The notes beneath the pieces are model-generated. The model made no database searches. It saw only the letters and a program-made list of their open reading frames with translations, and had not been told where the DNA came from. Below are positions 6,040 through 61,393 of a stretch of 64,000 nucleotides of DNA, piece after piece. Both the position numbers and the translations under genes were made by a program. Origin of the DNA: Bradyrhizobium sp. CCBAU 53421 (GTDB taxonomy: Bacteria; Pseudomonadota; Alphaproteobacteria; Rhizobiales; Xanthobacteraceae); NCBI RefSeq assembly GCF_015291625.1, contig NZ_CP030047.1:7936001-8000000 (forward strand), written 5' to 3'. Within the stretch, counting starts at the first letter, position 1. The number at the start of each line of letters is the position of its first letter.

Positions 6040-6064
6040 GTGTTTCCCCCTCGACTCCGTTGCG

Positions 6065-31052: not shown

Positions 31053-32273
31053 TCAAAACAGAGTGTGCAGGGGACCAAAATAACGATGATAAAAATCCAG
31101 GAACCGCGGCGCTTCCTTGGATGGATCGAGTCGCAGATCGGGGCAACGTGTGATCAGAGCCTTGAGGCTCTCGCGGACTTCAAGCCGCGCCAGATGCATA
31201 CCCACGCAGACCCGCGGGCCGACGTTGAAGGCCAGATGATCGGTCAGACGCGGCCGTCCCAAATCGACCATATGCGGGCATCCATAGTGATCGGAATCCC
31301 GATTTGCCGCCGCGTGAACGAGGCAAATCGTATCATCCTTCTTGATTGTCGCGTCACCGAGCGACACGTCGCGATTGGCAACCCTGTAGCGAAATTGAAC
31401 CGACCCTAGGAGCCGGAACGTCTCTTCGACAAATGCATTGAGGGCGCCGTCCTGATCGCTTGTGACCGCCTCGCGCACGGCAGAGTTCGCCAAGAGGAGG
31501 TAGATGGCGTTAGCCGTGGCATTGGCGGTGTTCTCGCCGGCGCCGAGGGCCAGCTCTCTTACAACGCCCAGCACATCCTCCACTTCGACCTCGCCGCAAT
31601 CCTTCTCGGCTTGAGACCACACCAGGCTGACGAAATCGCTCCCGCGATTGTGCCTTCGCTCAAGGATGTGGGGCAGCAGGATGGCGTTCAATTCCTTGCA
31701 TGCGAGCTTTGCCTTCCTGGTCAACTCCTCGCCGAAATACTTCATGCCGATCCAGGCAACAATGTCCCGATGCCAGCCAGCCATGTCATTGAGAAGCGCG
31801 TCGTCCTGCCATGGAAGTCCGAACAGGCTTGCCATGACCTTACCGGTTATCGGCTCGCAAAACTGCGACACGAGCTCGACACTTCCTTCGTCGGCGAACC
31901 GGTCGATTGTCTCGTTGATGATTGGCAGGATGTGCTGGTCGCGATATCTTGGCATGGCCGACGGCGCGAGAAGCTTGAGGTAGACCCGCCGCATACGCGC
32001 GTGCCTCTCCCCAACAAGCGCCGACAGACCTTCACCTCCCCTGATCTCGAATACAAGCGGAGGCGCGTCAGCGTAAGTAATTCGATAGGTACCCTCGTCC
32101 GACTCGACCTGCTTGCAAAGATCGTAAGTCAGCACGAGCCAACAATTCATGCCTTGATCCCAGACGACCCGTCCCTTCTTGCGCAGTAAATCATAGGCTG
32201 GAAAGGGATCCTGACCTGCGAGTGCCAGCATGGACCACTCTGCGGAAGTCTGAGGAACGGAGGCAACGCTCAT
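31053..32273 (-). CDS. Cytochrome P450
   Basis: A haem monooxygenase of 406 residues. The haem-ligand loop is FNVGPRVCVGMHLARLE with the Cys thiolate, the I-helix oxygen-binding stretch is LALGAGENTANA, and the K-helix EETFR is present. No membrane anchor is seen, so it is a soluble bacterial type needing separate ferredoxin and reductase, and no redox partner gene is next to it. The frame is open up to 32342 but the start at 32273 (MSVASVPQTSAEW) is preferred because it leaves the 15-bp motif at 32315-32330 in the promoter region. Substrate unknown. Confidence 0.9.
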   Translation of the reverse strand: MSVASVPQTSAEWSMLALAGQDPFPAYDLLRKKGRVVWDQGMNCWLVLTYDLCKQVESDEGTYRITYADAPPLVFEIRGGEGLSALVGERHARMRRVYLKLLAPSAMPRYRDQHILPIINETIDRFADEGSVELVSQFCEPITGKVMASLFGLPWQDDALLNDMAGWHRDIVAWIGMKYFGEELTRKAKLACKELNAILLPHILERRHNRGSDFVSLVWSQAEKDCGEVEVEDVLGVVRELALGAGENTANATANAIYLLLANSAVREAVTSDQDGALNAFVEETFRLLGSVQFRYRVANRDVSLGDATIKKDDTICLVHAAANRDSDHYGCPHMVDLGRPRLTDHLAFNVGPRVCVGMHLARLEVRESLKALITRCPDLRLDPSKEAPRFLDFYHRYFGPLHTLF

Positions 32274-32314
32274 GTCAATGTCGATCCTCTCAACGTTCGG
32301 GAGCTCATAAAAAA

Positions 32315-32330
32315 ATATACCCGGCATACC
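32315..32330. promoter_or_regulatory. Dyad motif ATATACCCGGCATACC upstream of the P450
   Basis: A near-palindromic 15-base motif 42 bases before the chosen P450 start. The same motif, differing by one base, occurs at 33844-33859. On the minus strand it includes TATATT, which could be a -10 box. It is a candidate operator. Confidence 0.45.
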
Positions 32331-32676
32331 ATCACCGGTCAACGCCAGGTTGCCATCGTTCTCGCCCGAAGATTCTCAAGATTTAGGACGCCACCGCTTC
32401 GGACAGTCACCGCCGGGCAAATGCGATTCGCTCTGCCTGCGATCACCGCGCCCTTTCTTGCCTCGGGTCGACCGCATCGCACCAGGCATGGCAGTGGCCT
32501 GCTGCGCGAAATTGACCGAGCCAAGACGATAGAACTTGCAGTGCCGGCATCTCTACCGGCACCTCGTTTCGCTCGTGGGGCGAACGCGCCGCTCATTGGG
32601 CCGTCTACGCGGGCGCGCCAACGACCACGGTGCGCACTATCGGACCTTTACGGCGGCCTGGGAAAGCTGGATGGGC

Positions 32677-33564: not shown

Positions 33565-34301
33565 CGGCCCCTCGGTTTGGTAGTTTGACAACGACCCTAT
33601 CTGCGCGACCTCTACTCCAAGCAATGTTTCGAGATGAGGTCGCGGCGATTAATCAGACATGCACGGGTAACTAGGTCACTCAGGCCATTTTGGCCGCTCC
33701 GTCGCGCTTTCAGTTCCGCCGGGCCCCCGAACGGCGGGTTGGAAACCAGCTTCGCGGCGTAACAAGTCCATACGCCTCGCAAACCTCGCGACCGCCGGCA
33801 CGTGAAGCACGCCCGTCAAGTGAGCCTCTAACGTTTAGTTAATGATATACCCGGTATACAAAGCTGGTCAAGACCGTCCCCCAATGATGTCCGGCGGTGA
33901 GGGGAGGCCGAACGGCGGAGGCCTGCTCTGGAGGCTGCTGGCTCAAGGAAGCCCGAACAAACCAGGTGAAGCCTGGCCGCAGACCGCAGTTCGGCAACTC
34001 GATCCGTGCCCGGTATAGTTGAACCCGCTCTAGGCCACGGTCTCTAATTCTCCGAAGATCAGGTGCGCGCGCGTTCACCAGTCTGGGCGGTACCGACTTG
34101 TAAGCGCGGCTATGCCTCCAACGCCGAGCTGCGGCCGTCATGAAATCGAAATACGAAGTACTTTTCCTCCTTCGACTCTTCCGATTTAAAGGAAGTTCAA
34201 TCCGGTATCCGTTGCGCGAGGTCAGCTGCTTACGAAGATGCGCGGCAACTCTTCGCGCGATTGCATCAAGTCCGACAGCACCCTCTGTGCCAGCGTGTAA
34301 A
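33565..34301. other. Gene-poor region upstream of the binding protein
   Basis: About 740 bases without a supported gene. It contains the second copy of the ATATACCCGG motif and ends at the candidate structured RNA. Confidence 0.4.
33844..33859. promoter_or_regulatory. Second copy of the dyad motif, GATATACCCGGTATAC
   Basis: The core TATACCCGGTATA is almost a perfect palindrome. It matches the motif at 32315-32330 in 14 of 15 core positions and in the same orientation. It lies 280 bases upstream of the binding-protein gene. Confidence 0.4.
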
Positions 34302-34411
34302 GAAGCCGCCGGTCTGAAGACCGGGCGGCTAAGTCAAGGGAGGAAACGCCCGTAGGGGCAAGGGTAGCAAGGCTACTGCTTCGCACCGCAGACCACTTCG
34401 GCGGATCTGGG
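34302..34411 (+). ncRNA. Candidate structured RNA, copy A (cut by the IS3 element)
   Basis: About 110 bases that closely match a minus-strand segment at 61191-61302. Both start GAAGCCGCCG, share AGGGAGGAAACGCCCGT, and end in GGCGGATCT. The first hairpin in copy A is GCCGCC-GGTC-TGAA-GACC-GGGCGGC; a second is GCCC-GTAG-GGGC and a third GTAGC-AAG-GCTAC. The sequences of paired arms differ between the copies while the hairpins are kept. The IS3 left end (TGAACCTCC) begins at 34412, exactly where similarity stops. The family is not identified. Confidence 0.55.
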
Positions 34412-35366
34412 TGAACCTCCTCCGAATTGATGGACACCTGTAGTAGGCTCGAAGAGCCAGGAGGTGTCAGATGGAAGGACGTCAACGTCGGTCGTTTACG
34501 GACGACTACAAGCGGCAAGCGGTTGACCTCGTAGCGTCGAGCGGGCGCTCGATCGGATCTGTGGCCAAGGAGCTTGGCCTGCGCGATTCCGTGCTGCGGC
34601 GGTGGGTGGAGCAGCGAGGGGCCCGGCCGGAGCCGACGGCGGCGGCGCGGCGCCCCCCAACGCAGGCGACGCTGCCGTCGGCGGACCACGCGGCAGAGAT
34701 CGCGCGTTTGCAGCGAGAGAACGAGCGGCTGCGCATGGAGCGCGATATTTTAAAAAAGTCGATCGCGATCTTTGCTGGAACACGGACATGAGATTCCGCT
34801 TCATCGAAGATCGCCGCGCCGATTATCCGGTGACGCTCCTGTGCGACGTGCTCGGCGTCTCGCCGGCCGGCTATTATGCCTGGCGCTCGCGCCCGGAGAG
34901 CCGACGATCTGCCGCCAATCGTGACCTCGTCGACGACATCAGGCGGGTCCACCGCGACACCCGCGGGCGTTATGGAAGCCCGCGTATCCATGTCGAGTTG
35001 AAGGCGCAGGGCCGCGGGGCGAGCCGTGGTCGTATCGAGCGGTTGATGCGGCGTCACGGCATCAGGGCCATCATGGCGCGGCCACGTCGGGTGCGGACCA
35101 CCGACAGCCGCCACGACCTGCCGATCGCCCCGAATCTGCTCGACCGCAACTTCATCGCCACTGCTCCGAACCAGATCTGGCTCGCCGATATCACCTACAT
35201 CGAGACCAATCAGGGCTGGCTCTATCTGGCCGCCGTCATGGATCTGTATAGCCGCAGGATTGTCGGCTGGGCGATGGCGGATCATTTGCGCGCCGAACTG
35301 CCCTTGGCGGCCTTGCGGATGGCGATCTCGGCGCAGCGGCCAAGTGCCGGCCTGATCCACCATTCG
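34412..35366 (+). mobile_element. IS3-family element, truncated at the 3' end
   Basis: The left end TGAACCTCCTCC resembles the TGAACC termini of IS3-family elements. It carries orfA and the first three quarters of orfB. Similarity to orfB stops in the codon after HHS (35366), in the middle of the catalytic core, so the right end has been lost by rearrangement and the element cannot move by itself. Confidence 0.7.
34471..34791 (+). CDS. IS3 family OrfA
   Basis: A 106-residue protein with the IS3 OrfA helix-turn-helix (DDYKRQAVDLVASSGRSIGS, VAKELGLRDSVLRRWVEQRG) and the C-terminal leucine-zipper-like ARLQRENERLRMERDILKKS. The slippery run AAAAAAG near 34752 is the usual -1 frameshift site for making OrfAB. 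It is intact, but its partner OrfB is truncated. Confidence 0.85.
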   Translation: MEGRQRRSFTDDYKRQAVDLVASSGRSIGSVAKELGLRDSVLRRWVEQRGARPEPTAAARRPPTQATLPSADHAAEIARLQRENERLRMERDILKKSIAIFAGTRT

Positions 35367-35381
35367 CCGAGGCCGGAGTAA
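34788..35381 (+). pseudogene. IS3 family OrfB, C-terminally truncated
   Basis: The frame starts MRFRFIEDRRADYPVTLLCD and contains the HTH_21 region (YGSPRIHVELKAQGRGASRG) and the integrase core start (APNQIWLADITYIETNQGWL with the first catalytic Asp). It breaks off after GLIHHS, where intact members continue DRGSQY with the second Asp; the last four codons and stop are foreign. The second Asp and the final Glu are missing, so the protein is inactive. Confidence 0.85.
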
Positions 35382-35748
35382 GGACCGCTCCTTCGCTGGG
35401 GAAACGATATGAACGCTCGTGGCGCAGCTTGGGAAATCTGCGAGACGCTACCGCGTTCACGACAAAGGTCCCTGACCTGCGGAACAATCAACGATCGCCA
35501 CGGCGTGCCTGCCGCCATCATCCGGCGCGGACAGCCGTGGCATCGAGGTATAAGCCAGGCCCCCCATCTGGATGGCTTATGAATTGTTTGGACGCCTCAC
35601 AGCCGACCTCGGCCGTGACTTCCACATGGACCTTGCGGACGTACTTCGCAACAAACAGAAAAGCCGTGCGTTACCTCGCGCGGCCGAAGCGTAGAAAAAG
35701 CGCCGATGGGGACAGCAATCCGGCCCGGCGACGTCTATATTGACCGGC
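35382..35748. other. Junction region after the truncated IS3
   Basis: No gene supported. Open frames on both strands are short and overlapping. The sequence may contain remnants of another element that replaced the IS3 right end. Confidence 0.4.
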
Positions 35749-37131
35749 ATGAAGCCCATTTCATCCCTCCGCTGGGACGCCCTGGCCGGGTACGCTCGCG
35801 ACCCGAAGACGCTGTTTATGGCCGAAGAAGTCGGCTGGTACGAGCACGCACAGGAGCGCGTCGTCGGGCTGCTGATCCGGGATTACGAAGACAATGATTA
35901 TGCCGGCGTTGTCTTCGGACGCGACAAGAAGCTGCGCTTTCGTTGCGTCTGGATCACCGGCTTCGATTCCCGGCGCCGCCACACCGAGGTGGCGCTCCGG
36001 CGTGAGATGGAACGCGCAGCGGCTGAAGACGACGCCGACTATCACCAAGGCGATGAGACCGGCAAGCCGGTTGATTTCTTCACCGCTGTCGTGCCTGAGG
36101 CGCGGCTAAATCCGAGCTTCGTCAAGCTGCGCGACGAGGAAGCGTTCTCCGCCGCGCGCGGCATCATCGAGCCGATGATGCGCTGGTATGAAGACGCTGA
36201 CGGCAATTTCGTCGAGCAGTTTCAGACCACCGGCTTCGATGCAAGAATCTGGGAACTGTATCTATTCGCCGCTTTTCGAGAGATGAATTTTGGCATCGAT
36301 CGCAGCCACGCCATACCGGATTTCGAATGTGAGAACCCGTTGGCGCGGTTTGCGGTCGAAGCAACAACCGTCAATCCGTCGCAAAGCGCAACGGGCGCGC
36401 CCCTGGCCGAACCGCCGCTCGATACGGCCGATCAGGTGCGGGCCTATCTCGATGGCTACATGCCGATCAAGTTCGGTAGCGCTCTTAAATCAAAGCTCGA
36501 TAAGAAATATTGGCAGAAGCCTCATCTGGCCGACGTGTCGCTAATGTTCGCCATTCAGGATTTTTCGGCTCCGCCCTCCATGATCTATACGCGGTCCGCC
36601 TTCGAGCATTACATCGCCGGCTACAAATACGATTGGGATCGCGACGAGAACGGACAGGTGAGAATTCATCCGCGGAAGATCGGGACGCATCGATGGGGCA
36701 CAAAGGAGATTCCTTCAGGTTTTTTTGAACTGCCTGGAACGGAGAATATTGCGGCGATTGCATTTTCAAACAGCGGCACGATCTCGAAATTTAACAGAAT
36801 GGGGTTGCTCGCCGGGTTCGGATCGAAACGCCTCAGGCTTGTCCGCCAAGGCACGGCCGTAGATCACGATCCGAATGCCACGGAGCCGTTAGCATTCAAG
36901 CGTCTCGTGAACGACCCAGGCTATTCCGAGACATGGGTGGAAGGTCTCGATTTCTGGCACAATTCGAAGGCCTTGCATCCAATCGACCCGGTCGTTTTGC
37001 CCGGTGCCGCCCATCATCTGATTGGCGCGAATGGTCAGGTCCAGCATCGCGTTCCTGACTGGCATCCGCTGGGATCGGTGACACTGCACTGGCTAGACCA
37101 TTCGGACGAACAGGCCGAACCAAAAGCATGA
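35749..37131 (+). CDS. Conserved protein of unknown function, possible nuclease-like fold
   Basis: A 460-residue protein without signal peptide or membrane segment. Residues about 165-215 read ARIWELYLFAAFREMNFGID, then HAIPDFECENPLARFAVEAT; the pattern Glu, then PDF, then a hydrophobic strand ending in Glu resembles a PD-(D/E)xK nuclease core, though the usual Lys after the last acid is replaced (VEAT). Similar proteins in rhizobia carry the uninformative name glycosaminoglycan attachment protein. The start at 35749 (MKPISSLRWDALAGYARD) is chosen over the TTG three codons upstream. It lies alone between IS remnants, as defence or mobile-element genes often do. Confidence 0.6.
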   Translation: MKPISSLRWDALAGYARDPKTLFMAEEVGWYEHAQERVVGLLIRDYEDNDYAGVVFGRDKKLRFRCVWITGFDSRRRHTEVALRREMERAAAEDDADYHQGDETGKPVDFFTAVVPEARLNPSFVKLRDEEAFSAARGIIEPMMRWYEDADGNFVEQFQTTGFDARIWELYLFAAFREMNFGIDRSHAIPDFECENPLARFAVEATTVNPSQSATGAPLAEPPLDTADQVRAYLDGYMPIKFGSALKSKLDKKYWQKPHLADVSLMFAIQDFSAPPSMIYTRSAFEHYIAGYKYDWDRDENGQVRIHPRKIGTHRWGTKEIPSGFFELPGTENIAAIAFSNSGTISKFNRMGLLAGFGSKRLRLVRQGTAVDHDPNATEPLAFKRLVNDPGYSETWVEGLDFWHNSKALHPIDPVVLPGAAHHLIGANGQVQHRVPDWHPLGSVTLHWLDHSDEQAEPKA

Positions 37132-38280: not shown

Positions 38281-39577
38281 AACAGATCCAGAAGCCGGCT
38301 AATGCCGCTGCAGTCGGCAAAAGCGCCCTCCGCGAGGCACGCCATCGGAACCGCCGACTAGCCCGACACCTGCTGGGTTTCGCTCCTACGGGACGAATGC
38401 GCCGACGCCGCTCACGCCCAAAGGCCGATCCAGTTACGCAAACTGTCCGAGTTCGGCCCCACTTTGGCGGATCTGCTGCAGCCGCCGCAGGCGGATCGTA
38501 GAAATTCAGAAGGCGGATGGCACGCGCTTCTACGTAGCAGACACTATCTGGCGGCCGGTCAGTCAGCGCCTGCTGGACAACACCTGAACGGAGCGCACAG
38601 GTCGCCGCGAGAAAGATGCTTGCTGGCCGTCGTTCGAATAGTCGCGCCGGCGCGCCAATCGATGTCTCTTGCGTTGGTCGAGCAAGCCGTCGACGGCGGG
38701 CTACCCTGGCTGAGATCGAAAGCGCGCTGCAACATCGAAGTCGGCGCCATCGACCCAAGGCGATGCCCGTCATCCTGACGACGCCCGACGAAGTGGAGAC
38801 TTGGCTGACCGCGGCGGCCGACGAAGCTCTTGAAGCTACAGCGGCCGCTGACCGACGGCGAGCTCCGGATCGTCGACCGGCGTGGCTCTGGCCAATGTGA
38901 TCCGGATCGCGCCTCACAAGGTCCAGCGCCGTTGATCTTGCCGGCGCGCCTTGCGCGGCAAGCGTCGTCATCTTCGATCACGTAGGACTGGCGCACCGGG
39001 CTCTCCCCAAGCCCGTCGGAGGCGCGCAATCATGCGTCGCTGCATTAAGGCTGTCTGTGCCTGGCCAAGCGCGGCCCTCAAAATTACAACGTACCGCGAA
39101 GCCGTAGCCATCCTGGGCTGTCGCCGGCCCGACGCTATTAGTGACGATCGTACTTCTCAAGGTCACACACGAAGATGGATTTGCACGACTCATTGTCGGA
39201 GCGTCGACAATGTAGGAGATCAGACAACGTGCCATGAGGGCGATCGCGTTGCTTCGACACCGCTTTCGCATTTTGGCATAGCACCTGCAAGACCATCCGC
39301 AAAAGGCGTTGCGTCATCGATGAACTCATCTCTTGGCCGGCCATGACGAACCTTCCGGGTGTAACAGACAAGGACTGCGCCTCGGCCGGCCGGGCCGTGT
39401 GCGCGCAAAACTGAGCTGCGCCAATGCAGTCGCGCCGTGGGAAACGAACTACTTGCCGTGGAACGATATTGGATCGCAATAGCGCAAGGCACGGTAATCG
39501 TCGACGTCCGTGCCGCGACGCATCAATCCGTCAAGGTTCGCCAACAATGCTTGGCCACCTAAATCGGAGAAGAGCCC
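38281..39577. other. Gene-poor region with decayed pieces
   Basis: About 1.3 kb holding only an SRAP relic (38640-38885) and unsupported overlapping frames, including a long minus frame 38129-38971 rich in Arg and Ala that is most likely an artefact of high GC. Confidence 0.45.
38640..38885 (+). pseudogene. Remnant of an SOS-response-associated peptidase (SRAP/YedK-like)
   Basis: The frame at 38616-38900 contains PKAMPVILTTPDEVETWLTA, the C-terminal block of SRAP proteins, which crosslink abasic DNA sites. After a frameshift the sequence continues LLKLQRPLTDGELRIV in another frame, and the preceding block (IEVGAI) is in a third frame. The N-terminal catalytic Cys region is not found. It is a decayed fragment. 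Confidence 0.7.
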
Positions 39578-40324
39578 ATGCTAATCAATCAAGGAGATGT
39601 CCCCAGTCTCACGGCAAAGTTCCGGTGGGGACACGCAGCGATCTCGCATGTCTTGTCCAAGTTCGGCAATGAACCGGAGGTTTGTCCACAATTTCCCTGC
39701 TTTTTCGGCCGGCGAGCTGTCAAGCGCGGCAATCTGCGCTTTCTCCTCATTCCATATGATCTCGAACGACTAGGGTACGAGCTTGATCTTCTGGTTTGCG
39801 GCTTACGCGCATACATCGAGGATATTGACATCGATGCTCTCGACATCAAGCGCCACCGTCCATTACTCGTTCTTTTTGAGCCGATCGATACCCTTACGAC
39901 CGCGGGTCAGTTTAAGCAGGTCTTCATCGAAGCGATGCAGCTTCTCATCGAAGAAGATCGGCATCCCTGGCCTACGCACGTGCCCAAGGATCCGGCGCAT
40001 CCGAAGTGGACGATGTGCTTTCACGGCTGCGAACTCTTCGTAAATGTCAGTCATCCATCCCACGCTCTTCGCAGAAGCCGAAACATGGGAGCCGGCTTGG
40101 CTTTCGTTGTCAATCCACGCAAGATCTTCGACATCGCAGCTCCAGCCGATCGACGAGGCAGAGCTGTTACGGCAAAGATCCGACAAAACATCGACGCCTA
40201 CGATCACGTCGCCCATAGTCCGCTGCTGGGATCATACCTTCTAGGGGAAGCGCAGTGGCCTCAATACATGATCCCTGACAACAATGAGGATGCACCCCTT
40301 GAGTGCCCTCTGCACTTCAAGTGA
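39578..40324 (+). CDS. YqcI/YcgG-family protein (possible haem-dependent N-oxygenase)
   Basis: A 248-residue soluble protein. The segments CPQFPCFFGRRAVKRGNLRF, HPWPTHVPKDPAHPKWTMCF and CELFVNVSHPSHALRRSRNM followed by GAGLAFVVNPRKIFD are the conserved YqcI/YcgG pattern. A member of this family, GntA of guanitoxin biosynthesis, is described as an amine N-hydroxylase; that relation makes an oxygenase role plausible but unproven. GGAGAAGAG lies just before the ATG. It is followed in the same direction by an amino acid permease and a 2,3-aminomutase, so it probably modifies an amino acid. Confidence 0.75.
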   Translation: MLINQGDVPSLTAKFRWGHAAISHVLSKFGNEPEVCPQFPCFFGRRAVKRGNLRFLLIPYDLERLGYELDLLVCGLRAYIEDIDIDALDIKRHRPLLVLFEPIDTLTTAGQFKQVFIEAMQLLIEEDRHPWPTHVPKDPAHPKWTMCFHGCELFVNVSHPSHALRRSRNMGAGLAFVVNPRKIFDIAAPADRRGRAVTAKIRQNIDAYDHVAHSPLLGSYLLGEAQWPQYMIPDNNEDAPLECPLHFK

Positions 40325-40511
40325 CCGGCGAGGCCGCAACGGCTCGCTCGCCCTGGATTGCGCCGTCATCCAGTCATCCGGCGAGTCATGCTTCGCTCTT
40401 CTATCCGGATGGCAGCCAGGGCAGGCTCCAACGGCTTGTCGTCGGGAACCCTACCGATGGTGCCTCTTACTCCCAGACAGACGATCAGTGGATTTTTCCG
40501 CCGAGGCCAGG

Positions 40512-41765
40512 ATGAAAGATGAGAGCCAGAGCGGAATTAAGGGACACCTGGAGCTTAGCTCAGGGATTTTGCTCGTCGTTTCGGTCATTCTTGGATCCGG
40601 CATACTCGTGCTGCCCGGAATGGTGTTCGAAAGAATTGGCAGTGATGGCATATACGCCTGGCTCGCGTGCTCCCTGCTCACGACGCCGATTTTGGCGACG
40701 ATGGTGATGTTAGGCAGGGCCTATCCAAGCGCAGGCGGCGTTGCATACTATGCCAAGCTCGCTTTTGGTCAGTACTTCGAGTTGCTGGTGGCGTTGCTGT
40801 TTCTCGGAGCTGCAATGCTGGGCTTACCATCGATCGCAATCGTGGGGGCGGCTTACCTACAGAAGCTGATTGGCACCAGCGTCGACATTCATCTGCTCGC
40901 CGTACTGTTTATCCTGCTTTGCGGCTTCCTTGCCCTGTCCGGTGGCAAGTCGCTCTCGAGGGTCGTGAGGCTGGTGGGCGGTTCGTCGTTATTCCTTCTA
41001 ATAGGCGTACTCTTTGTCTTAATCGTGCTGGCAGTCCGCGCCAATGGCGCCGGATTCAGTCGACCCGCAAGTTTCTCGTCGATCGTGGGTCAGATTCCGC
41101 TGATCTTTTTCTCCTTCACTGGCTGGGAAATCGTCTCGCATTTGGCTGCGGACTTTCGGACTCCTGGAAAGACTTTAGGACGCGCAATGGTCTGCTCGTT
41201 CTTTGTTGTCTTTTGCGTATACATCGGCAGCGCTGCGCTCGTGCATGTTGCCGATATCAAGTCGAACTTCAACACGCCAATATTGCAAGCCGCAGTGCAG
41301 ATTGCGCCAGCGGCGCCGGGCTGGCTGGTTGCCCTGCTTGGAGTATTGTTGATCGCTGCCAATCTGTTCGGATCAGTTGTGGCTGTCTCGCGGCTCATTC
41401 TTTACCTTTCCGGTCGCCGCGTCCTTTCCGCCGGTCTCAGTTACGTGCGCAATGGAGCACCTCGCAACAGTGTCTATTTTGTCGCTGTGTCGCTCACCCT
41501 AATCGTTGCTTGCGACTGGATCGAGCTGCTCGATATCGAGATAATGTTTCGCTTGGCTGCCATGAATTTTCTCGCCATCTACGTGATCTCGGCGATTGCC
41601 TTGGTCAGACTCCGGCAGCGCCTGTTTTCACGACTGCTTGCTGCCGCGGTTGTATGTCCATCAGCCCTGATCATGCTCAGCTCCGCGTATTCCCTTTCCT
41701 ATGTCGCGTTGATAGCGCTTATGACCTACTTCCTTACACGCAACAATCGAACGAGATCGACATGA
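40512..41765 (+). CDS. APC-superfamily amino acid permease
   Basis: A 417-residue membrane protein with about twelve hydrophobic helices. The first helix region SSGILLVVSVILGSGILVLP carries the GSGI motif of amino acid/polyamine/organocation carriers, and helix 2 ends GRAYPSAGGVAYYAKLAFGQ. Helix 6 contains IPLIFFSFTGWEIVSHLAAD. It is closest in design to YjeH-type amino acid exporters. The ATG at 40512 follows GAGGCCAGG; the frame is open upstream to 40284 but that part overlaps the YqcI gene end and is not conserved. Its stop overlaps the aminomutase start (ATGA). It may export the product or import the precursor of the cassette. Confidence 0.88.
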   Translation: MKDESQSGIKGHLELSSGILLVVSVILGSGILVLPGMVFERIGSDGIYAWLACSLLTTPILATMVMLGRAYPSAGGVAYYAKLAFGQYFELLVALLFLGAAMLGLPSIAIVGAAYLQKLIGTSVDIHLLAVLFILLCGFLALSGGKSLSRVVRLVGGSSLFLLIGVLFVLIVLAVRANGAGFSRPASFSSIVGQIPLIFFSFTGWEIVSHLAADFRTPGKTLGRAMVCSFFVVFCVYIGSAALVHVADIKSNFNTPILQAAVQIAPAAPGWLVALLGVLLIAANLFGSVVAVSRLILYLSGRRVLSAGLSYVRNGAPRNSVYFVAVSLTLIVACDWIELLDIEIMFRLAAMNFLAIYVISAIALVRLRQRLFSRLLAAAVVCPSALIMLSSAYSLSYVALIALMTYFLTRNNRTRST

Positions 41766-42859
41766 ACCAGCTCTATATCGATGGGGTTTTCAGGACCATC
41801 TCGATCAAGGAGGGGTTGCTACCCGTGAAGGTCACACCATTCTATGAAAGGAAGATCAAGGAAGAAGTTGAGGCGTTGGGCAATCATCAGGGGCCGCTTC
41901 ACCGAGTGTCCTTCCCGACGCAGGACAGAATCTCATTAAGGGCCCCCAACGAGGTGAAGGACTTTGTCGATGATCGGTCCAATGCCTGTGGCCGTTCTAA
42001 CAGGACGTCAGCGGTCCGCAAGTATGCCAGCCGCGTGCTATTCCTAACCACATCGAAGTGCTTTGGTAACTGCCAGTATTGCTTCCGCTCGGCCGCACTT
42101 AACGAAAGCGTCGACGTCGACACGCGAACTGAGCAGGATGCAGATTTGCGGCATCTGATCGAATATCTCCATAGCCAGCCCGATGTAACTGAAGTGATCC
42201 TGTCAGGAGGAGATCCGTTAATCCTGCCGGCGTCCCAGCTATCGGCCATTATCGAGGGGATTCGGTCGGTTTCATCCGTAAAGTCAATCCGAATTCATAC
42301 AAGGGCGATCGTGTATGAGCCGAGGGCTTTTACAGCGGAGAAGATTGATCTCCTTACACAGCATAAGCTTCGCCTTACCTTCCATATCGTGCACCCGTAC
42401 GAAATCTGTGAGGAAGTGTCGGATAAGATTGCAGAGCTTCGACAGCACAAGCTGAGGCTCTACAATCAATTTCCTCTGTTGCGTAATACAAATGACCACC
42501 ATGCGGTGCTTTATCGGCTCCTGGAAAAGCTCGACGAGATGGGCGTACGCAATCTCTCAATCTTCATTCCGGATCCCATTTACTATTCCGCAGCATTCCG
42601 TGTGCGTTTGAGCCGCATCTGGCGCATTTCTGATCGTCTCAATTTCATTTCACCATCATGGATCAATTCGACACGCTTTGTGTTCGACTCCCCTCGAGGT
42701 AAGGTAAGGCGAGAACATTATAGCAGAACGAATGACGACACTGATGTCGCCATCTTCATGCGAGACGGCGACCAAATTTCTTTTCCCGATTTTCCTGTGG
42801 CTCTTGATGTCCCCGGCAGGATCGAATTCATGCTGTGGAAGGAAAGCCGACCGTCCTAA
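41762..42859 (+). CDS. Lysine 2,3-aminomutase-like radical SAM enzyme (KamA family)
   Basis: A 365-residue enzyme. The radical SAM cluster cysteines are Cys100, Cys104 and Cys107 (SKCFGNCQYCFRS), followed by the GGDPL motif near residue 150 that binds SAM. PRGKV at 311-315 aligns with the PLP lysine of lysine 2,3-aminomutase (Lys314), and acids at 281 (FIPDP) and 309 (FVFDS) fall where that enzyme holds the substrate side-chain amine. The C-terminal zinc cysteines of clostridial enzymes are absent, as in the short EpmB-like forms. The family migrates an amino group from C2 to C3. The ATG at 41762 overlaps the permease stop; the open frame extending back to 40667 is only overlap with the permease. 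Confidence 0.88.
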   Translation: MNQLYIDGVFRTISIKEGLLPVKVTPFYERKIKEEVEALGNHQGPLHRVSFPTQDRISLRAPNEVKDFVDDRSNACGRSNRTSAVRKYASRVLFLTTSKCFGNCQYCFRSAALNESVDVDTRTEQDADLRHLIEYLHSQPDVTEVILSGGDPLILPASQLSAIIEGIRSVSSVKSIRIHTRAIVYEPRAFTAEKIDLLTQHKLRLTFHIVHPYEICEEVSDKIAELRQHKLRLYNQFPLLRNTNDHHAVLYRLLEKLDEMGVRNLSIFIPDPIYYSAAFRVRLSRIWRISDRLNFISPSWINSTRFVFDSPRGKVRREHYSRTNDDTDVAIFMRDGDQISFPDFPVALDVPGRIEFMLWKESRPS

Positions 42860-43583: not shown

Positions 43584-43671
43584 GTAAGCGTAGCGCCGAG
43601 GCCCCTTGGATTGCTTGTGCGGAGTCTTGAGAGCACCGCTAGAAGAGTCATCTTCTGCAAGGGTGCTCATA

Positions 43672-44094
43672 ATGGACGACCATTCTGACGACATAAGACG
43701 ACGGTTTTCACCACGTATCGAAGTGTATGCTGGTGCAGGTTGCAAGCGCTGGCCGGACGATTTGAAGGCGCAGATTGCCGCCGAAAGCCTCGAGCCGGGT
43801 GCGGTTGTCACGGATGTCGCCCGTCGTCATGGCTGCCGGCCCCAGCAGGTGCATGACTGGCGGCGCCGTGCGCGGTTGGGCCAGTTGGTGCTGCCGGCGT
43901 CGGCGGACACGCTGTCGTTCGTGCCGGTGGTATCGGAATCGGCGTTGCCGGCGACCGCGGAACCCTCCGAGTCGCCGGAAGCCGCCGTTGTGACGATCGA
44001 GTTCCAAGGGGCGCGCGTAGAGGTGCGCGGGACGCCTGGCCTTGCTGTGCTGAGTGATGTGTTCCTAGCGCTCCGACGGACACGTTCATGCTGA
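43672..44094 (+). CDS. IS66 TnpA
   Basis: A 140-residue protein. The N-terminal helix-turn-helix reads WPDDLKAQIAAESLEPGAVV, then DVARRHGCRPQQVHDWRRRA. The C-terminal strand region VVTIEFQGARVEVRGTPGLA is typical of IS66 OrfA. The ATG at 43672 is the first in-frame start inside the element; the longer frame begins close to the inverted repeat. Its stop overlaps the tnpB start region at 44088. Confidence 0.85.
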   Translation: MDDHSDDIRRRFSPRIEVYAGAGCKRWPDDLKAQIAAESLEPGAVVTDVARRHGCRPQQVHDWRRRARLGQLVLPASADTLSFVPVVSESALPATAEPSESPEAAVVTIEFQGARVEVRGTPGLAVLSDVFLALRRTRSC

Positions 44095-44436
44095 CAATGC
44101 CCGCGAGCCTCACGATTTACGTGGCGACGCAACCCGTGGACTTCAGGAAGGGAGGGCTTGGCCCTGCTGGCGAAAGAGACGCTGGGCCATGACCCGATGA
44201 AGGGCGTAGCGGTGGTCTTCCGTGCGAAGCGCCCCGCTCGAGTGAAGATTGTCGTCTGGGATGGCACCGGCCTTGCGATGTACTGGAAGCGGCTCGATGG
44301 CAGCGGCTTCAAATGGCCACCCATCGTGGCCGGCGTGATGCGGATGAATGCCGCCCAGTTGTCAGCGCTTCTGGCCGGCATGGATTGGACACGCATGCAC
44401 GCGCCTCGAATCCCGCAGCCGAAAGCGCTTGCGTAA
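44088..44436 (+). pseudogene. IS66 TnpB, frameshifted
   Basis: The reading starts MLTMPASLTIYVATQPVDFR at 44088 and loses frame after FRKG. The rest of TnpB (LALLAKETLGHDPMKGVAVV, then WDGTGLAMYWKRLDGSGFKW) continues in another frame from 44158. Compared with the family, about five bases are missing around 44150, where FRKGMEGLALL would be expected. TnpB is needed for IS66 transposition, so this copy is probably immobile unless helped. Confidence 0.8.
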
Positions 44437-44487
44437 AAATACAAATCTTCGCTGCATCACGGCGCGAAGCATGGCAAGCTCGGGCCA

Positions 44488-46053
44488 ATGAGTGATTTGC
44501 CCGATGAGCTGCCGAGCGATCCAGCCGAGTTGCGTGTCTTTGCCGCGGCTCTGCTGGATCGCTGCGCCAGGCTCGAGCGGTTACTCAAGCTTGCGAAAGA
44601 TGCGCAGTTCGGTCGATCCTCGGAAAAGCTCGATGCTGATCAGCTACAGCTTGTTCTGGAGGACATCGAAGGAGCCGTCGCAGCTCTCGAAGCCACCGAA
44701 GATCGCGCCAATCCCAGAGTTTGCGAGAAGAGGACGGCCGAGCGCAGAGCCAACCGTGGTCAGCTGCCGGAGCATTTACCGCGCATCGTGGAAACCTTGA
44801 TGCCGGCCGAGACCTGTTGCCCGTCTTGTGCGGGCGACCTCTTTGAGATTGGTCGGGATGAGAGCCAGAGGCTTGACGCCGTTCCGGCGCAGTATCGCGT
44901 CATCGTCACCCGCCGGCCCAAGCTCGCCTGCCGCGCCTGTCATGGCGTCGTCCTGCAGCATGCTGCTCCCGAGCGACTGATCAGGGGAGGATTGCCCACC
45001 GAGCGGCTGGTCGCGCATGTGATCGACGCGAAGTATCATTGGCATTTGCCGCTTTACCGCCAGGCGCAGATGCTGGCGACGCACAGAATAGCGCTGGACC
45101 GTTCCACGCTGGCCTTCTGGGTCGGCTATGCCGCCCAGGAACTGAAGCCGTTGTGGCATCGGCTGCGCCAGCTTCTGCTCGCCTCCTCGAAGCTCTGCGT
45201 CGATGAGACCCCGGCGCCGGTATTGGATCCGGGGCGCGGCAGGACCAAAACCGGCTACTTCTGGGCGCTGTCGCGCGATGACAGGCCCTGGGCCGGACCT
45301 GATCCGCCTGGAGTGGTTTATGCCTATGCACCGGGCCGCGGCGCCGTTCATGGCTTGCGGTTGCTTGAGGGCTATCGCGGCATCATCCACTGCGACGGCT
45401 ATCAGGCTTACAAGACCGTGACCCGAGAGACGCGTGCGGACGCCCTGTCCGGGACGCTCGCCTTCTGCTGGTCGCATCTGCGGCGCCAGTTTGTGAAGAT
45501 CGAGCGCGAGGCGGCACCAGCGCCAGCTCCGGTTGCCCGCGAGGCCCTCGAGCGCATCGCTCAGCTATATGCGGTCGAGAAGGTTCTCCGCGGCCGATCT
45601 GCGGACGAGCGCCGCGCCGGCAGGCACGCGCATGCCCGGCCTCTGGCTGCAGCCTTGAAGCCGTGGTTCGAGGCCAAGCTTGATCACCTTGCGCAGAAGA
45701 GCGACACGGCGAAGGCTTTGCGCTATGCGCTGCGGCATTGGGACGGCCTGACACTGTACCTTGATGACGGGCGCATCGAGATGGACACCAATGCTGTCGA
45801 GCGAGCGATGCGGCCGATCAAGCTCAACGCCAAGAACGCCCTTTTTGCCGGCTGCGACGAGGGCGCTGAGAATTGGGCATTGCTCGCTTCGCTCATTGAG
45901 ACCTGCAAGCTCAATGGCGTCAGCGCCGAGCACTGGCTTGCTGACGTTCTCGCCAAGCTCGTCAATGGCTGGGCTGCGGCACGACTGGACGAACTGCTTC
46001 CCTGGGCGTCGACCTATACGATGCATACACACGATCCGAGGCTGGCGGCATGA
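44488..46053 (+). CDS. IS66 TnpC transposase
   Basis: A 521-residue DDE transposase with intact domains: an N-terminal coiled coil and QFGRSSEKLD motif, a zinc-finger segment (CCPSCAGDLFEIG), the catalytic core (SSKLCVDETPAPVLDPGRGR, GIIHCDGYQAYK, FCWSHLRRQF) and the C-terminal DGRIEMDTNAVERAMRPIKL block. The stop overlaps the passenger gene start (ATGA at 46050-46053). This is the only TnpC in the window's first two IS66 copies that is undamaged. Confidence 0.92.
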   Translation: MSDLPDELPSDPAELRVFAAALLDRCARLERLLKLAKDAQFGRSSEKLDADQLQLVLEDIEGAVAALEATEDRANPRVCEKRTAERRANRGQLPEHLPRIVETLMPAETCCPSCAGDLFEIGRDESQRLDAVPAQYRVIVTRRPKLACRACHGVVLQHAAPERLIRGGLPTERLVAHVIDAKYHWHLPLYRQAQMLATHRIALDRSTLAFWVGYAAQELKPLWHRLRQLLLASSKLCVDETPAPVLDPGRGRTKTGYFWALSRDDRPWAGPDPPGVVYAYAPGRGAVHGLRLLEGYRGIIHCDGYQAYKTVTRETRADALSGTLAFCWSHLRRQFVKIEREAAPAPAPVAREALERIAQLYAVEKVLRGRSADERRAGRHAHARPLAAALKPWFEAKLDHLAQKSDTAKALRYALRHWDGLTLYLDDGRIEMDTNAVERAMRPIKLNAKNALFAGCDEGAENWALLASLIETCKLNGVSAEHWLADVLAKLVNGWAAARLDELLPWASTYTMHTHDPRLAA

Positions 46054-51018: not shown

Positions 51019-51333
51019 CTAACAGGCTGTTGAAGAAGTCTTTGATCGACGCGCGATGAATGGGATGTTGTCGCCGTTGGCGAGGCAGATCTCACCTTCG
51101 AGTGAGTCGTCATCCTGCAATTCGGCCCAGCCGTCACCATTGGCTGGCTCCATTTCGTCGTTTCCCTGCCAGCCGAACTCGACGGCATCGCCGTGGCAGG
51201 CTCCATGAATGGAGCCAGTGAGGCAATCGACGGCGAACTCGCCGCCGTCCGCATCGAACAGGATATAGGCGCCCGCCAGGGCCATATCGTAGCCTGGCGT
51301 CTCGACAACCCGCCACCTGCCCCGGATGCTCAT
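51019..51333 (-). CDS. Small passenger protein of the IS5-group element
   Basis: A 104-residue acidic protein starting MSIRGRWRVVETPGYDMALA and continuing YILFDADGGEFAVDCLTGSI, EFGWQGNDEMEPANGDGWAE and GEICLANGDNIPFIARRSK. Its ATG overlaps the transposase stop (51330-51332), so it is coupled. It looks like a small beta-rich protein of unknown function. The reading passes through the terminal repeat: the final Cys codon and the TAG stop are completed by the duplicated target bases CTAA. Confidence 0.75.
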   Translation of the reverse strand: MSIRGRWRVVETPGYDMALAGAYILFDADGGEFAVDCLTGSIHGACHGDAVEFGWQGNDEMEPANGDGWAELQDDDSLEGEICLANGDNIPFIARRSKTSSTAC

Positions 51334-52509
51334 GCCGGCGCCGCCAGAAGCTTGGGAAGCCGGATTAGATTGTATGCTGCAAGCGCCAGGACGAAGACGG
51401 CATCGACCCGGTCGCGGCCTCGCAGTTTTACCTTGGCCAAACCAGCGGAACTCTTGATCCAGCCGAACACCTCTTCGATCCGTTTGCGGCAACGCTGGCT
51501 GATGTCATAGCCGCTGTGGCGTGTGGTCCGCGCGTCGATCGCCGTCTTGCGCCGCTTGCCGGTCTTGCTCAGATGTCCGTCGATCGCGATATGCGGAGTG
51601 ACCGACCTCTCTCTGAGATCGTGCACGAACTGCGTGACGTCATAGGCCTTATCGGCCCCCAGAGTGATCCGCTTCGTGCACCTGCGCCTGTCGATCATGG
51701 CAAGCGCAATCTCCCGTTCGGCGGTGCCCGTTGCTTGGCTCACTCCACCCAAAACCGCCAAGCCATTGCGGTTCTCCATCAGAGCATGGCCCATATAGCT
51801 CAGCTTGGCTGGCTGGCCGTCACCCTTCTTGTAGAGCCGCGCCTCAGGATCGGTCGTGCTCTCATGGATCTGGTTGGATCGCTTCTCCTTATGGAAGCTG
51901 CGCTCGGCGTTGCGTCCCGGACCATCCTGGTCTTTGTCGCTGCCATCCTTCTTCCGGAAGCTCTTGATCGAAGCCCAGGCTTCAATCAGCGTCCCATCCA
52001 CCGAGAAATGATCGCTCGATAGCAGACGCTTGAGCTTTGGCTGCGCCAAGAGCGCGTTCAGGAATTTGGCCGCAATCTCGCCCTCGAGCAGCCAGTCGCG
52101 GTTCTTCGAGAAGGTCGAATGGTCCCAAACCACATCGTCCACGCCAAGCCCGACGAACCAGCGGAACAGCAGATCGAACTCTATCCGTTCCATTAGATGC
52201 CGTTCCGAACGAACACCATAGAACGCTTGTAGAAGCATCGCCCGAAGCAACTTCTCCGGTGCGATCGAGGGGCGACCGAAGTCCGTATAGAGCTTGCCGA
52301 ACTCCCCAGAAAGGTCGCCCAGCGCCGCGTTCGCCAGGTCCCGGATCACCCGTAGCGGATGGTCGGCGCGAACCCGAGCCTCCAGGTCCACATAACTGAA
52401 AAGCGAGCCAGACCGTTCGTCACTCCCCCGCATCGCATCCCCCAGGCAAATCCTGGTTCTAGAGAATCACGATACAAAACGCTTCGCTACCGACTTCTTC
52501 AACAGCCTG
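51023..52509 (-). mobile_element. IS5-group element inside tnpC (1487 bp)
   Basis: Perfect terminal repeats CAGGCTGTTGAAGAAGTC face each other at 51023 and 52509. The flanks are a 4-bp duplication, CTAA, at 51019-51022 and 52510-52513, matching the YTAR target of the IS5 group. It carries a transposase gene and a coupled small passenger gene, both intact. Confidence 0.95.
51330..52433 (-). CDS. IS5-group transposase
   Basis: A 367-residue DDE transposase. N-terminal blocks are FSYVDLEARVRADHPLRVIR and FGRPSIAPEKLLRAMLLQAF; the catalytic Asp is in DHFSVDGTLIEAWAS, the second in LGADKAYD, and the Glu in the tail CRKRIEEVFGWIKSSAGLAK. The gene is undamaged and both element ends are present with a fresh target duplication, so this is probably the youngest and potentially active element of the nest. 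Confidence 0.92.
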   Translation of the reverse strand: MRGSDERSGSLFSYVDLEARVRADHPLRVIRDLANAALGDLSGEFGKLYTDFGRPSIAPEKLLRAMLLQAFYGVRSERHLMERIEFDLLFRWFVGLGVDDVVWDHSTFSKNRDWLLEGEIAAKFLNALLAQPKLKRLLSSDHFSVDGTLIEAWASIKSFRKKDGSDKDQDGPGRNAERSFHKEKRSNQIHESTTDPEARLYKKGDGQPAKLSYMGHALMENRNGLAVLGGVSQATGTAEREIALAMIDRRRCTKRITLGADKAYDVTQFVHDLRERSVTPHIAIDGHLSKTGKRRKTAIDARTTRHSGYDISQRCRKRIEEVFGWIKSSAGLAKVKLRGRDRVDAVFVLALAAYNLIRLPKLLAAPA

Positions 52510-52608
52510 CTAACTCTTCAGCGTATCGCCAACGGTTGGCCGAGCAGCGAAATCGATGCGCTGATGCCATGGAACCACGCCGCCTGACGGCCTCAGCTTG
52601 CCGCTTAC

Positions 52609-52929
52609 ATCCCTGGCACCATCGTCCCCCGTCTCTTCCACGGACAGCAGTTCGTCGAGGGTGCTCTGGGTACCTTCGATCGACGACGAACTGACCGCCT
52701 CGCGTCTGGTCAGCACGCGGCTGACGATGTAGGGGTCCTTCATCTGCGCCGCGATGGCGTCGACCTTGCCGAAAGCCGCTTGGGCAGCATCCAGAGCTTT
52801 CGCCGCCCCAGCTACCGAAACGCCCTCCTCGGGCGGCGCCGGCGGAACGACTCCGTAATGTGAATCGTACGGCGGCGGCAACCGCTTGAGGGTCTCCCGG
52901 ATGGTGTGGCTGAGATCGCTCCGCTTCAT
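52609..52929 (-). pseudogene. fic gene, N-terminal piece
   Basis: From the ATG at 52929 the minus strand reads MKRSDLSHTIRETLKRLPPP and, at residues 71-100, RVLTRREAVSSSSIEGTQST then LDELLSVEET, ending GDDGARD at the IS66 boundary (107 codons). Ser81-x3-Glu85-Gly86 fits the class II autoinhibitory motif (S/T)xxxE(G/N). The next residues, EARQIRNYAV, are found 5.3 kb away at 47250, on the far side of IS66 copy 2. The 8 bases 52609-52616 are one copy of the target duplication. Confidence 0.9.
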
Positions 52930-53105
52930 GAAAAGCCAAATCTGGGCGTTGGGTTTCCTATTATAATTAGGGTTCCTGTAAAAAGCCATAGCAGACTGCG
53001 ATCTCAGAACCCCAAAACAGGGTGTACGCATACGACGAAGACCGCCAGATTGGCTCATGCGCGTGAGAGCGGCAGCCTCTATGATGGCCGGGCGTTGTGT
53101 GAAGG

Positions 53106-54758
53106 TCAGGCGACCTGCTGATCGGCGGGCTTGTCGGCTTGGCGCAGGAGCTTCCATTCCCAGGGCAGCAGTTCGTGCAGACGCGATGCGGGAAGATCGG
53201 CGATACGGTCGAGGACGTCGGCGAGCCAGGCTTTCGGATCGACCTCGTTGAGGCGACAAGTCGTGATCATGGTCAGCATGATGGCGGCGCGGTCGGCGCC
53301 ACGCTGGCTGCCGGCGAAGGTCCAGTTGCGCCTCCCCAACGCGATGCCGCGCAACGCTCTTTCAGCGGCGTTATTGCTGAGGCAGATCCTGCCGTCGTCG
53401 AGGAAGCGGGCGAAGTCGTCCCAGCGCCTGAGCATGTAGTTCATGGGCTTCAGGACCTCGGAGGAACGCGATAGGGTTTCTCGCTCGCGGAGCAGCCAGT
53501 CGTGCATGTCGTCGAGCAGCGGCTTGCTCTGCTCCTGGCGCACGGCACGCCGCTCGTCGGCGCTGCGGCCGTTGATGGCGCGCTCGATCTCGAACAACGC
53601 ATCGAGGCGTCTGACAGCCTCCAGCGCGATCGGGGAGATCGGTTTGCCTCTCTGGCCTTCCCGGGCATTCTTCTCGATGTCGGCCAGTTCGAAGAAGCCT
53701 CGCCGTGCATGGGCGAAGCAAAATGCCGGCGTGACCGGCAGCACCTTCTTCTGCGGGTCGAACAGCGGCTCGAAGCCGTTGTAGCAATCGGCTTGCAAGA
53801 TACCGGCGAAGGCGGCCAGATGCTTCTGGGGATGCTTGCCTCTTCGGTCGCTCGAGGCGTAATAGACCGCCGCCGGCGGCGCAGGCCCGGCGAAGGGGCG
53901 GTCATCCCGCACGTAAGTCCAGATCCGTCCGGTCGTGCACTTGCCCTTCGCCAGGATACGGATGGTGGTGTCATCGCCATGTAAACGCTCGGCAGTGAGC
54001 ACACGGCGTTCGATCAAGTGGAACAGCGGCATGACCGCGAAGGTCCCGTGGCCGACCTGGTCAGCCAGCGTCGACAGCGGCAAATCGATCCTCTCGGCCT
54101 TAAAGCGCGCACTCTGGCGGTTGAGCGGGATATGCATGCCGAACTTGTCGAACAGGATCGTCGCCAGCAATTTTGGGCCGATGAAGCCGCGCGGCGTGGC
54201 ATGGAACGGCGCCGGCGGCTGGCTGATCTTCTCGCAATCGCGGCAGCTGAACTTCTCGCGCACTGTCTCGATGACCTTGAAGCGACGCGGGATCTCCTCC
54301 AGCGTCTTGGTCACATCCTCGCCGACCTTCGCCAGCCGCGATCCGCCGCAGCAGGCGCAGCTCGTCGGAGCGTCAATGACGACACGCTCGTGTTCGATAT
54401 CGTCCGGCCAGGGCTTGCGCACCGGCCGCTTGCGCGTGAAGGGGCGGACGTTCTGCGTCTTCGCCGCTGCGGCCTGCGCGGCAAGCTCATCCTCGCTCGC
54501 CGCGGCGACGAGGTCTTCGAGCTCCAGTTCCAACTGCTCGAGCAGCCGCGCCGTGCGCTCGGAGCGCTGCCCATACAGTTCGCGCTTGAGCTTCTCGATC
54601 CGCAGCTCAAGATGTGCGATCAGCGCCTCGTTGTCCGACAGCTCCGCCCGCGCACTGGCAGCTACCGCCTCGGCTTGTAGCCGCGCCTCACGTTCGGCCT
54701 GCAGCGCCGCCAGGGCACTCGCAAGATCCGATGGAAGGTCGTCCGGCTTCGATATCAT
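53106..54758 (-). CDS. IS66 TnpC transposase, copy 3 (different subtype)
   Basis: A 550-residue protein with the coiled coil and LKRELYGQRSERTARLLEQL near residue 60, the zinc segment CACCGGSRLAKVGEDVTKTL, FSCRDCEKISQPPAPFHATP, the catalytic core (HGDDTTIRILAKGKCTTGRI, GILQADCYNGFEPL, FCFAHARRGFFELA) and DGRICLSNNAAERALRGIAL. It diverges strongly from copies 1 and 2, so it represents a separate IS66 subtype. No damage is seen. Confidence 0.92.
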   Translation of the reverse strand: MISKPDDLPSDLASALAALQAEREARLQAEAVAASARAELSDNEALIAHLELRIEKLKRELYGQRSERTARLLEQLELELEDLVAAASEDELAAQAAAAKTQNVRPFTRKRPVRKPWPDDIEHERVVIDAPTSCACCGGSRLAKVGEDVTKTLEEIPRRFKVIETVREKFSCRDCEKISQPPAPFHATPRGFIGPKLLATILFDKFGMHIPLNRQSARFKAERIDLPLSTLADQVGHGTFAVMPLFHLIERRVLTAERLHGDDTTIRILAKGKCTTGRIWTYVRDDRPFAGPAPPAAVYYASSDRRGKHPQKHLAAFAGILQADCYNGFEPLFDPQKKVLPVTPAFCFAHARRGFFELADIEKNAREGQRGKPISPIALEAVRRLDALFEIERAINGRSADERRAVRQEQSKPLLDDMHDWLLRERETLSRSSEVLKPMNYMLRRWDDFARFLDDGRICLSNNAAERALRGIALGRRNWTFAGSQRGADRAAIMLTMITTCRLNEVDPKAWLADVLDRIADLPASRLHELLPWEWKLLRQADKPADQQVA

Positions 54759-61008: not shown

Positions 61009-61393
61009 GCCCGGTCCCCAAGAGCGGTGTAACGGAAAGCGCGAAAGAACTCGGTTCGTACGCTACGTACGCAACTTTTTCTTTTAGTGCGGGCTCGATT
61101 GAATTACTTGAGGCGGCAAAGCGTAGCTCTTCGCATCACCTCCATTCGATGAGCAGGGATCATCCTCTGGCATAGTGGCAAAGTGCTTGTTCCGAGATCC
61201 GCCAAGCGATTGGCGGTGCCTTGCGGTACTCTCGCTACCGCTGCCCTCACGGGCGTTTCCTCCCTAGACTTGGCCGCCGGTCCTAAAGGATCGGCGGCTT
61301 CCTTCGATATCGGCCCGCTTCTCAGATCAATCCGCACTTGAGAAAAGCGGGGTCTGACGGCGGCCGAGGGCGTAATGGCAACTAGAGGAATTT
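61009..61393. other. Gap after pabA containing the second candidate RNA
   Basis: No protein gene is supported. The minus frame 61104-61337 overlaps the structured RNA candidate and is probably spurious. Confidence 0.45.
61191..61302 (-). ncRNA. Candidate structured RNA, copy B
   Basis: The minus-strand counterpart of the segment at 34302-34411, with the same order and length. Hairpins: GCCGCC-GATCC-TTTA-GGACC-GGCGGC, then GCCC-GTGA-GGGC, then GCGGTA-GCGAGAG-TACCGC, then CCGCCAA-TCGC-TTGGCGG. The connecting sequence AGGGAGGAAACGCCCGT is unchanged between copies, while several paired bases differ. It is not coding in any consistent frame. Confidence 0.6.

Follow-up and report, generated by a model that had tools for sequence, protein, structure and literature searches.

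The window analysed here is a 64,000-nt stretch of Bradyrhizobium sp. CCBAU 53421 (genome G000; positions 7936001–8000000 of contig C1, NZ_CP030047.1, the single contig of a 9.26-Mb genome whose closest relatives by sequence are Bradyrhizobium); all positions below are those of the window unless a contig or locus is named. On its + strand, at 39578–42859, it carries a cassette of three genes encoding a YqcI/YcgG-family protein, an APC-superfamily amino acid carrier and a 2,3-aminomutase-like radical S-adenosylmethionine (SAM) enzyme. We propose, at about even confidence, that this is a symbiotic cassette controlled by NifA and sigma-54, for the synthesis and export of a modified basic amino acid in the nodule. 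The proposal is based on what is observed: the order of the genes and their co-conservation, the promoter motifs, the predicted folds and the catalytic residues, the purifying selection and the linkage to nif and nod. From these we infer the regulation by NifA, the chemistry, the order of the steps, the direction of transport and the role. A preliminary description, made from the sequence alone, had regarded the genes as a possible source of a signal or toxin. Its co-conserved amino acid cassette, its AglA-like YqcI protein with a heme cysteine and its non-EpmB aminomutase all stand, but neither the sigma-54/NifA-type promoter nor the location on a symbiosis island had been recognised. In the light of these two features, the product is to be read as one that belongs to the nitrogen-fixing stage rather than as a general signal or toxin.

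In the proposed mechanism, a NifA-activated sigma-54 promoter would yield a single transcript of the self-contained cassette during nitrogen fixation in the nodule. Acting on a basic amino acid, either lysine or arginine, the aminomutase would shift the alpha-amino group to C3; YqcI, as a thiolate-heme enzyme, would hydroxylate a nitrogen, most likely that of a guanidine group; and the carrier would move the product out into the nodule. This product would be a basic amino acid that is N-hydroxylated, of the beta type, or both. In the nodule it could act as a symbiosis-specific metabolite, either a rhizopine-like nutrient or an N-hydroxyarginine-type signal. A more specific version, which we put forward tentatively and consider rather less probable, is a new class of metabolite of the nitrogen-fixing stage: an N-hydroxylated beta-amino acid, such as N-hydroxy-beta-arginine, would be produced and exported by a mobile cassette that NifA turns on in bacteroids, linking nitrogenase-stage control to a rhizopine-like or nitric-oxide/arginase-directed nodule signal. 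The comparison with rhizopine synthesis (mos/moc) is one of analogy: a nodule-stage, symbiotically regulated unusual metabolite, reportedly described by Murphy in 1988, would have its counterpart in the product proposed here, whereas the enzymes and chemistry are unrelated. Control of mos is exerted by NifA.

We found no description of this three-gene set in the open-licence literature searched. Each enzyme family is already known; what is new is their combination, together with a nif-type promoter and an aminomutase clade that is divergent. The cassette suggests that rhizobia, once they fix nitrogen, make a small molecule not yet described, from a minimal defined set of three genes and one promoter. 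If the proposal is correct, legume symbiosis would involve a heme enzyme family that was characterised recently, along with a divergent clade of aminomutases, and the nif regulon would control specialised amino acid chemistry.

Gene layout and conservation of the cassette

All three frames are open on the + strand, as previously described, and encode a putative heme N-hydroxylase-like YqcI/YcgG protein of 248 amino acids (aa; 39578–40324), the carrier (417 aa; 40512–41765) and the aminomutase-like enzyme (365 aa; 41762–42859). The four-base overlap of the last two genes is also real: ATGA at 41762–41765 combines the carrier stop with the aminomutase start. Family assignments agree with the earlier ones, with Pfam scores of 161.5 bits for PF08892 (gathering cut-off 27), 81.2 for PF13520 (27) and 38.9 for PF04055 (29.5), respectively. 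The carrier frame reaches upstream to 40284; its homologs align from the start at 40512. The best of eight NCBIfam models for this protein is PRK11021 (L-methionine/branched-chain transporter; YjeH-type, NF008245), whose cut-off of 284 bits is not reached (141.9 bits).

A genus-wide search covered 265 genomes, including that of the window, and stretches of up to 20 kb were inspected around the matches. An aminomutase match occurs in 12 of the 265, and the order YqcI–carrier–aminomutase in nine (G000, G511, G369, G374, G489, G298, G325, G329 and G326), among them B. mercantei (G374), B. macuxiense (G369) and B. aeschynomenes (G298). In G369 the YqcI gene has an in-frame stop, and in G489 it is a C-terminal fragment only. 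Remnants of the cassette persist in G368, also B. macuxiense, and in G406, and G363 has a relative (38–39%) that lacks the partner genes. The same order is found on plasmids of Mesorhizobium huakuii 583, Rhizobium etli IE4771 and NXC12, and Rhizobium NXC14, as well as in a contig of Mesorhizobium LSJC280B00. Thus, 14 loci from three genera (the window and 13 others) preserve the gene order, and in 12 of these no internal stop interrupts any of the three frames; the lack of co-conservation that the preliminary description had named as fatal to its case was not seen. The reverse search gave YqcI matches in 67 of the 265 genomes: proteins at least 60% identical are confined to the nine cassette genomes, and a different YqcI, 28–33% identical, is present in the remaining 58 genomes and also in five of the cassette genomes.

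The cassette genes are under purifying selection. Ratios of nonsynonymous to synonymous substitution rates (dN/dS) between the window and its homologs range from 0.09 to 0.23 over the three genes (YqcI 0.09–0.20, nine comparisons; carrier 0.11–0.23, 11 comparisons; aminomutase 0.09–0.21 in ten of 11, synonymous sites being saturated in the remaining one), values that are rough because dS exceeds 1 in many comparisons. In close pairs they are mostly 0.10–0.27. Transposase genes surround the cassette, as would be expected if the three genes were chance neighbours on an island rich in mobile elements. This explanation is refuted by the conserved order and we give it practically no weight: the same order in 14 loci of three genera, kept while other neighbours change, together with the low dN/dS, means more than chance. 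When we compared neighbours in 13 loci (the window region, nine Bradyrhizobium stretches, one of them a remnant, and three plasmids), no other gene of at least 90 aa was common to more than four.

The promoter region and the symbiotic setting

The region upstream of YqcI contains a candidate sigma-54 −24/−12 promoter, TGGCATAGCACCTGCA (39274–39289, + strand), a weakened copy that matches the consensus at 9 of 12 letters. Two candidate NifA upstream activator sites on the same strand, both perfect TGT-N10-ACA, precede the −24 element by 80 and 63 bp (39194–39209 and 39211–39226). Transcription would start, judging from the promoter position, so as to leave an untranslated leader at 39300–39577 (+ strand), in which no conserved small open reading frame was detected. 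Scored against the consensus TGGCACG-N4-TTGCW (12 scored letters), 10 of 12 regions upstream of YqcI reach 11–12; Mesorhizobium LSJC280B00 (L099) scores 10 and R. etli NXC12 (L107) 12. Among 480-bp background stretches a score of 11 is found in 0% for the window, 1.8% for the Bradyrhizobium loci and 1.0% for the Rhizobium loci, the latter two figures including the true sites. In R. etli IE4771, YqcI alone has a perfect −24/−12 element among 25 upstream regions tested (27 annotated coding sequences), the next best scoring 9, and the upstream regions of LysE-paired and other relatives (n = 5) score 6–8.

In five of 11 regions, the 220 bp that precede the element contain perfect TGT-N10-ACA sites (two in the window, two in L046, one in L048, two in L053 and one before the second YqcI copy of L053), as is also the case in LSJC280B00. 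Such a site is found in 1.9% of 2531 other 220-bp stretches of the window, none of which has two, and in 3.5% of 3558 stretches of five Bradyrhizobium loci, 15 of which have two. The −24/−12 element and the perfect NifA sites carry the promoter argument. Both motifs of the NifA-RpoN regulon are present at the cassette, a candidate member of that regulon.

The genomic setting is symbiotic. All 11 genomes with a cassette or a remnant carry nifH, compared with 159 of 265 overall (hypergeometric P 0.003, relatedness ignored), and nine of the 11 have a strong NodA match, which is weak in B. aeschynomenes and absent from G374. In the window genome the cassette, at 7.976 Mb, lies between nodA (7.530 Mb) and nifH (8.111 Mb), and nodA is about 8 kb from the cassette in IE4771 and about 6 kb in NXC14.

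The YqcI/YcgG protein

The predicted structure of the window YqcI has the sandwich fold of AglA, the argolaphos enzyme, and its Cys41 aligns with the axial heme ligand Cys44 of AglA, so the fold and heme cysteine agree with what had been suggested. The cysteine is invariant across the 23 rows of alignment A4, from which row P0150, lacking it in alignment A2, had been excluded. The window protein shares its Pfam family and fold with AglA and with the other heme guanidine N-hydroxylases of this group (GntA, ChmN, DcsA, AmbT and Mhr24); the sequence comparison was made with AglA. Besides the heme cysteine, the Phe152/Phe182 gate, Arg166, Arg179, Arg200 and Gln228 of AglA are all kept, while the phosphonate-binding Lys196 and Lys225 are replaced by Thr and Gln, and Gln177 by Asn (residue roles according to PMC12866846). 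The GntA equivalog NF041366 is not reached (31 bits, cut-off 145), and the window protein also differs from AglA and its relatives by sitting in a three-gene cassette. The YqcI enzymes characterised in PMC12866846 and PMC10849742 act on arginine or arginine derivatives.

Two further YqcI genes were noted. G326 has a second copy about 6 kb upstream (L053:983–1648; the match spans residues 1–227), and a separate sigma-54 consensus site lies about 300 bp ahead of this copy. In the window genome, a second YqcI (C1:3381200–3381817, L001) is 30% identical and of a type found in 63 of the 67 matching genus genomes.

The aminomutase

The third protein has the general features of a 2,3-aminomutase by alignment and structure prediction: the radical SAM motif CxxxCxxC at 100–107, Arg109, Asp271, Asp309, a pyridoxal 5'-phosphate (PLP) lysine at 314 and the predicted fold of lysine 2,3-aminomutase (LAM). 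The LAM residues Arg134, which binds the carboxylate, Asp293, Asp330 and Lys337 are functional residues, and in comparison with the Clostridium subterminale enzyme (2a5h) equivalents of all four are present. The PLP lysine is where the preliminary description had put it; of the two acids named there, Asp309 (LAM Asp330) is right, but residue 281 is a valine and the true partner is Asp271 (LAM Asp293). The aspartate pair of lysine-type enzymes is kept. The cassette enzyme is about 27% identical to LAM, falls in a deep clade of its own and has a short PLP loop, DSxxGK, instead of DAPGGGGK; the stretch after the PLP lysine is 48–54 residues long in rows from the cassette and in near kin. The enzyme misses the cut-off of the KamA subfamily (TIGR00238, 141.7–141.9 of 199.2 bits), and for this reason we file it as KamA-like in a separate clade. 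Nor does it reach AblA lysine 2,3-aminomutase (TIGR03820, 116.4 of 525.4 bits) or BlsG arginine 2,3-aminomutase (TIGR04468, 116.4 of 600 bits). BlsG is likewise a 2,3-aminomutase, with a basic substrate by annotation, but in two blsG-annotated enzymes Thr replaces Asp309; it forms a separate clade, and its neighbours are nonribosomal peptide synthetase (NRPS) or polyketide synthase, TauD-type and aminotransferase genes.

EpmB (TIGR03821), encoded next to efp/epmA, belongs to the same superfamily and is of comparable length. It is the best-scoring NCBIfam model (150.3 bits), which could suggest a protein-modifying set akin to EpmB acting on elongation factor P. This is largely refuted and very improbable: the score is far below the cut-off of 369.3 bits, the clade is different, and the sole efp match in the genome lies 2.7 Mb from the cassette and 2.2 kb from another EpmB-like gene of the host. 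Grouping with EpmB beside efp, which the preliminary description had named as contrary to its interpretation, was thus not found.

A sister-clade aminomutase (49% identical) overlaps a LysE-family transporter gene, with no YqcI in the stretch (L043:11965–13723, L044:11965–13723). This LysE-paired clade is found on plasmids of Rhizobium sp. 007 and Sinorhizobium medicae, and more records exist from S. medicae and S. meliloti. This is a second case in which an amino acid transporter is paired with aminomutases of this group. It also bears on the view that the cassette houses two parallel activities with common regulation and no common substrate, the aminomutase making beta-lysine or another beta-amino acid for export, as the LysE-paired enzymes may do, and YqcI separately hydroxylating arginine. 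Retention of Asp271 and Asp309 as in lysine-type enzymes, with Thr at the second place in the blsG-annotated references, points the same way as these YqcI-free relatives; YqcI and the aminomutase nonetheless occur together in all 14 ordered loci, which suggests one pathway, and we hold parallel activities to be doubtful.

More distant relatives were also observed. Aminomutases about 47% identical occur in another family of the order (L015, L018; also L017, L021), those of L015 and L018 near a CobW-type GTPase (by eye) and all four near a WD40-like gene; Glu replaces Asp271 in the aligned members of this group (L015, L018, L019, L022). On Rhizobium tropici-type plasmids (L088:5686–6828, L106:4683–5828) Arg and Ser replace the two aspartates, and in CIAT 899 the neighbours of the distant relative include genes that carry the annotations biotin carboxylase family and glutamate 5-kinase. 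B. diazoefficiens bll8232, labelled L-lysine 2,3-aminomutase, may be EpmB or belong to the clade of the cassette enzyme; a table in PMC8632152 includes it among orthologs of soybean-nodule differentially expressed genes.

Points against the proposal

Several observations weigh against a symbiotic, NifA-controlled biosynthetic cassette. The −24 element of the window is degenerate, its score of 9 being reached by about 12% of background stretches, and since it is weak the window strain may express the cassette poorly. M. huakuii (L040) has no −24/−12 element within 450 bp; an IS1380 transposase gene ends about 360 bp upstream. Six of the 11 regions lack a perfect NifA site, and five of these have one-mismatch sites only, which count for little because such sites are common by chance (32% of stretches in the window, 42% in the Bradyrhizobium loci); R. 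etli IE4771 (L041) has not even a one-mismatch site in the 220 bp upstream of the element. The 12 regions represent fewer lineages, because several are near relatives (L047/L048, L051/L052/L053, L041/L042), and the nifH P value takes no account of relatedness either. For the close pair L051/L053 the dN/dS of YqcI is 0.52, on few changes. The two enzymes may not share a substrate, since guanidines are the targets of the YqcI relatives and the aspartate pair retained in the aminomutase is of the lysine type. The export direction of the carrier and the timing of expression are both predicted.

Clostridial lysine 2,3-aminomutase, moreover, serves breakdown, APC carriers can import, and canavanine and mimosine are legume compounds. 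The cassette could then detoxify or use a host-plant amino acid such as these, with the carrier importing it and the two enzymes breaking it down. The nodule isolates among the carriers of the cassette and its patchy distribution are consistent with such a role, but the NifA/sigma-54-type promoter suits the nitrogen-fixing stage and not soil or infection, and the YqcI relatives described in PMC12866846 and PMC10849742 function in biosynthesis. We consider this explanation unlikely and continue to favour the synthesis and export of a modified basic amino acid.

Neighbouring genes

Transposase-like genes lie at 34471–35381 and 43606–46053 (both by eye) and at 51330–54758, where Pfam identifies a DDE transposase (51330–52433) and IS66 (53106–54758). 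Upstream of the cassette, a 463-aa open frame (35740–37131) has no Pfam match at E 0.001, and a cytochrome P450 is encoded at 31053–32342. A glutamine-synthetase-like gene stands beside a glutamate-synthase-domain gene at 4702–7393, and suhB/mmgR small RNA matches (Rfam RF00519) are found at 34289–34366 and 61236–61312. In M. huakuii (L040:1–9615), the 13 kb or so that precede the cassette include, on the far side of the IS1380 element, an NRPS gene, an argininosuccinate synthase-related gene and a 2-oxoglutarate dioxygenase gene.
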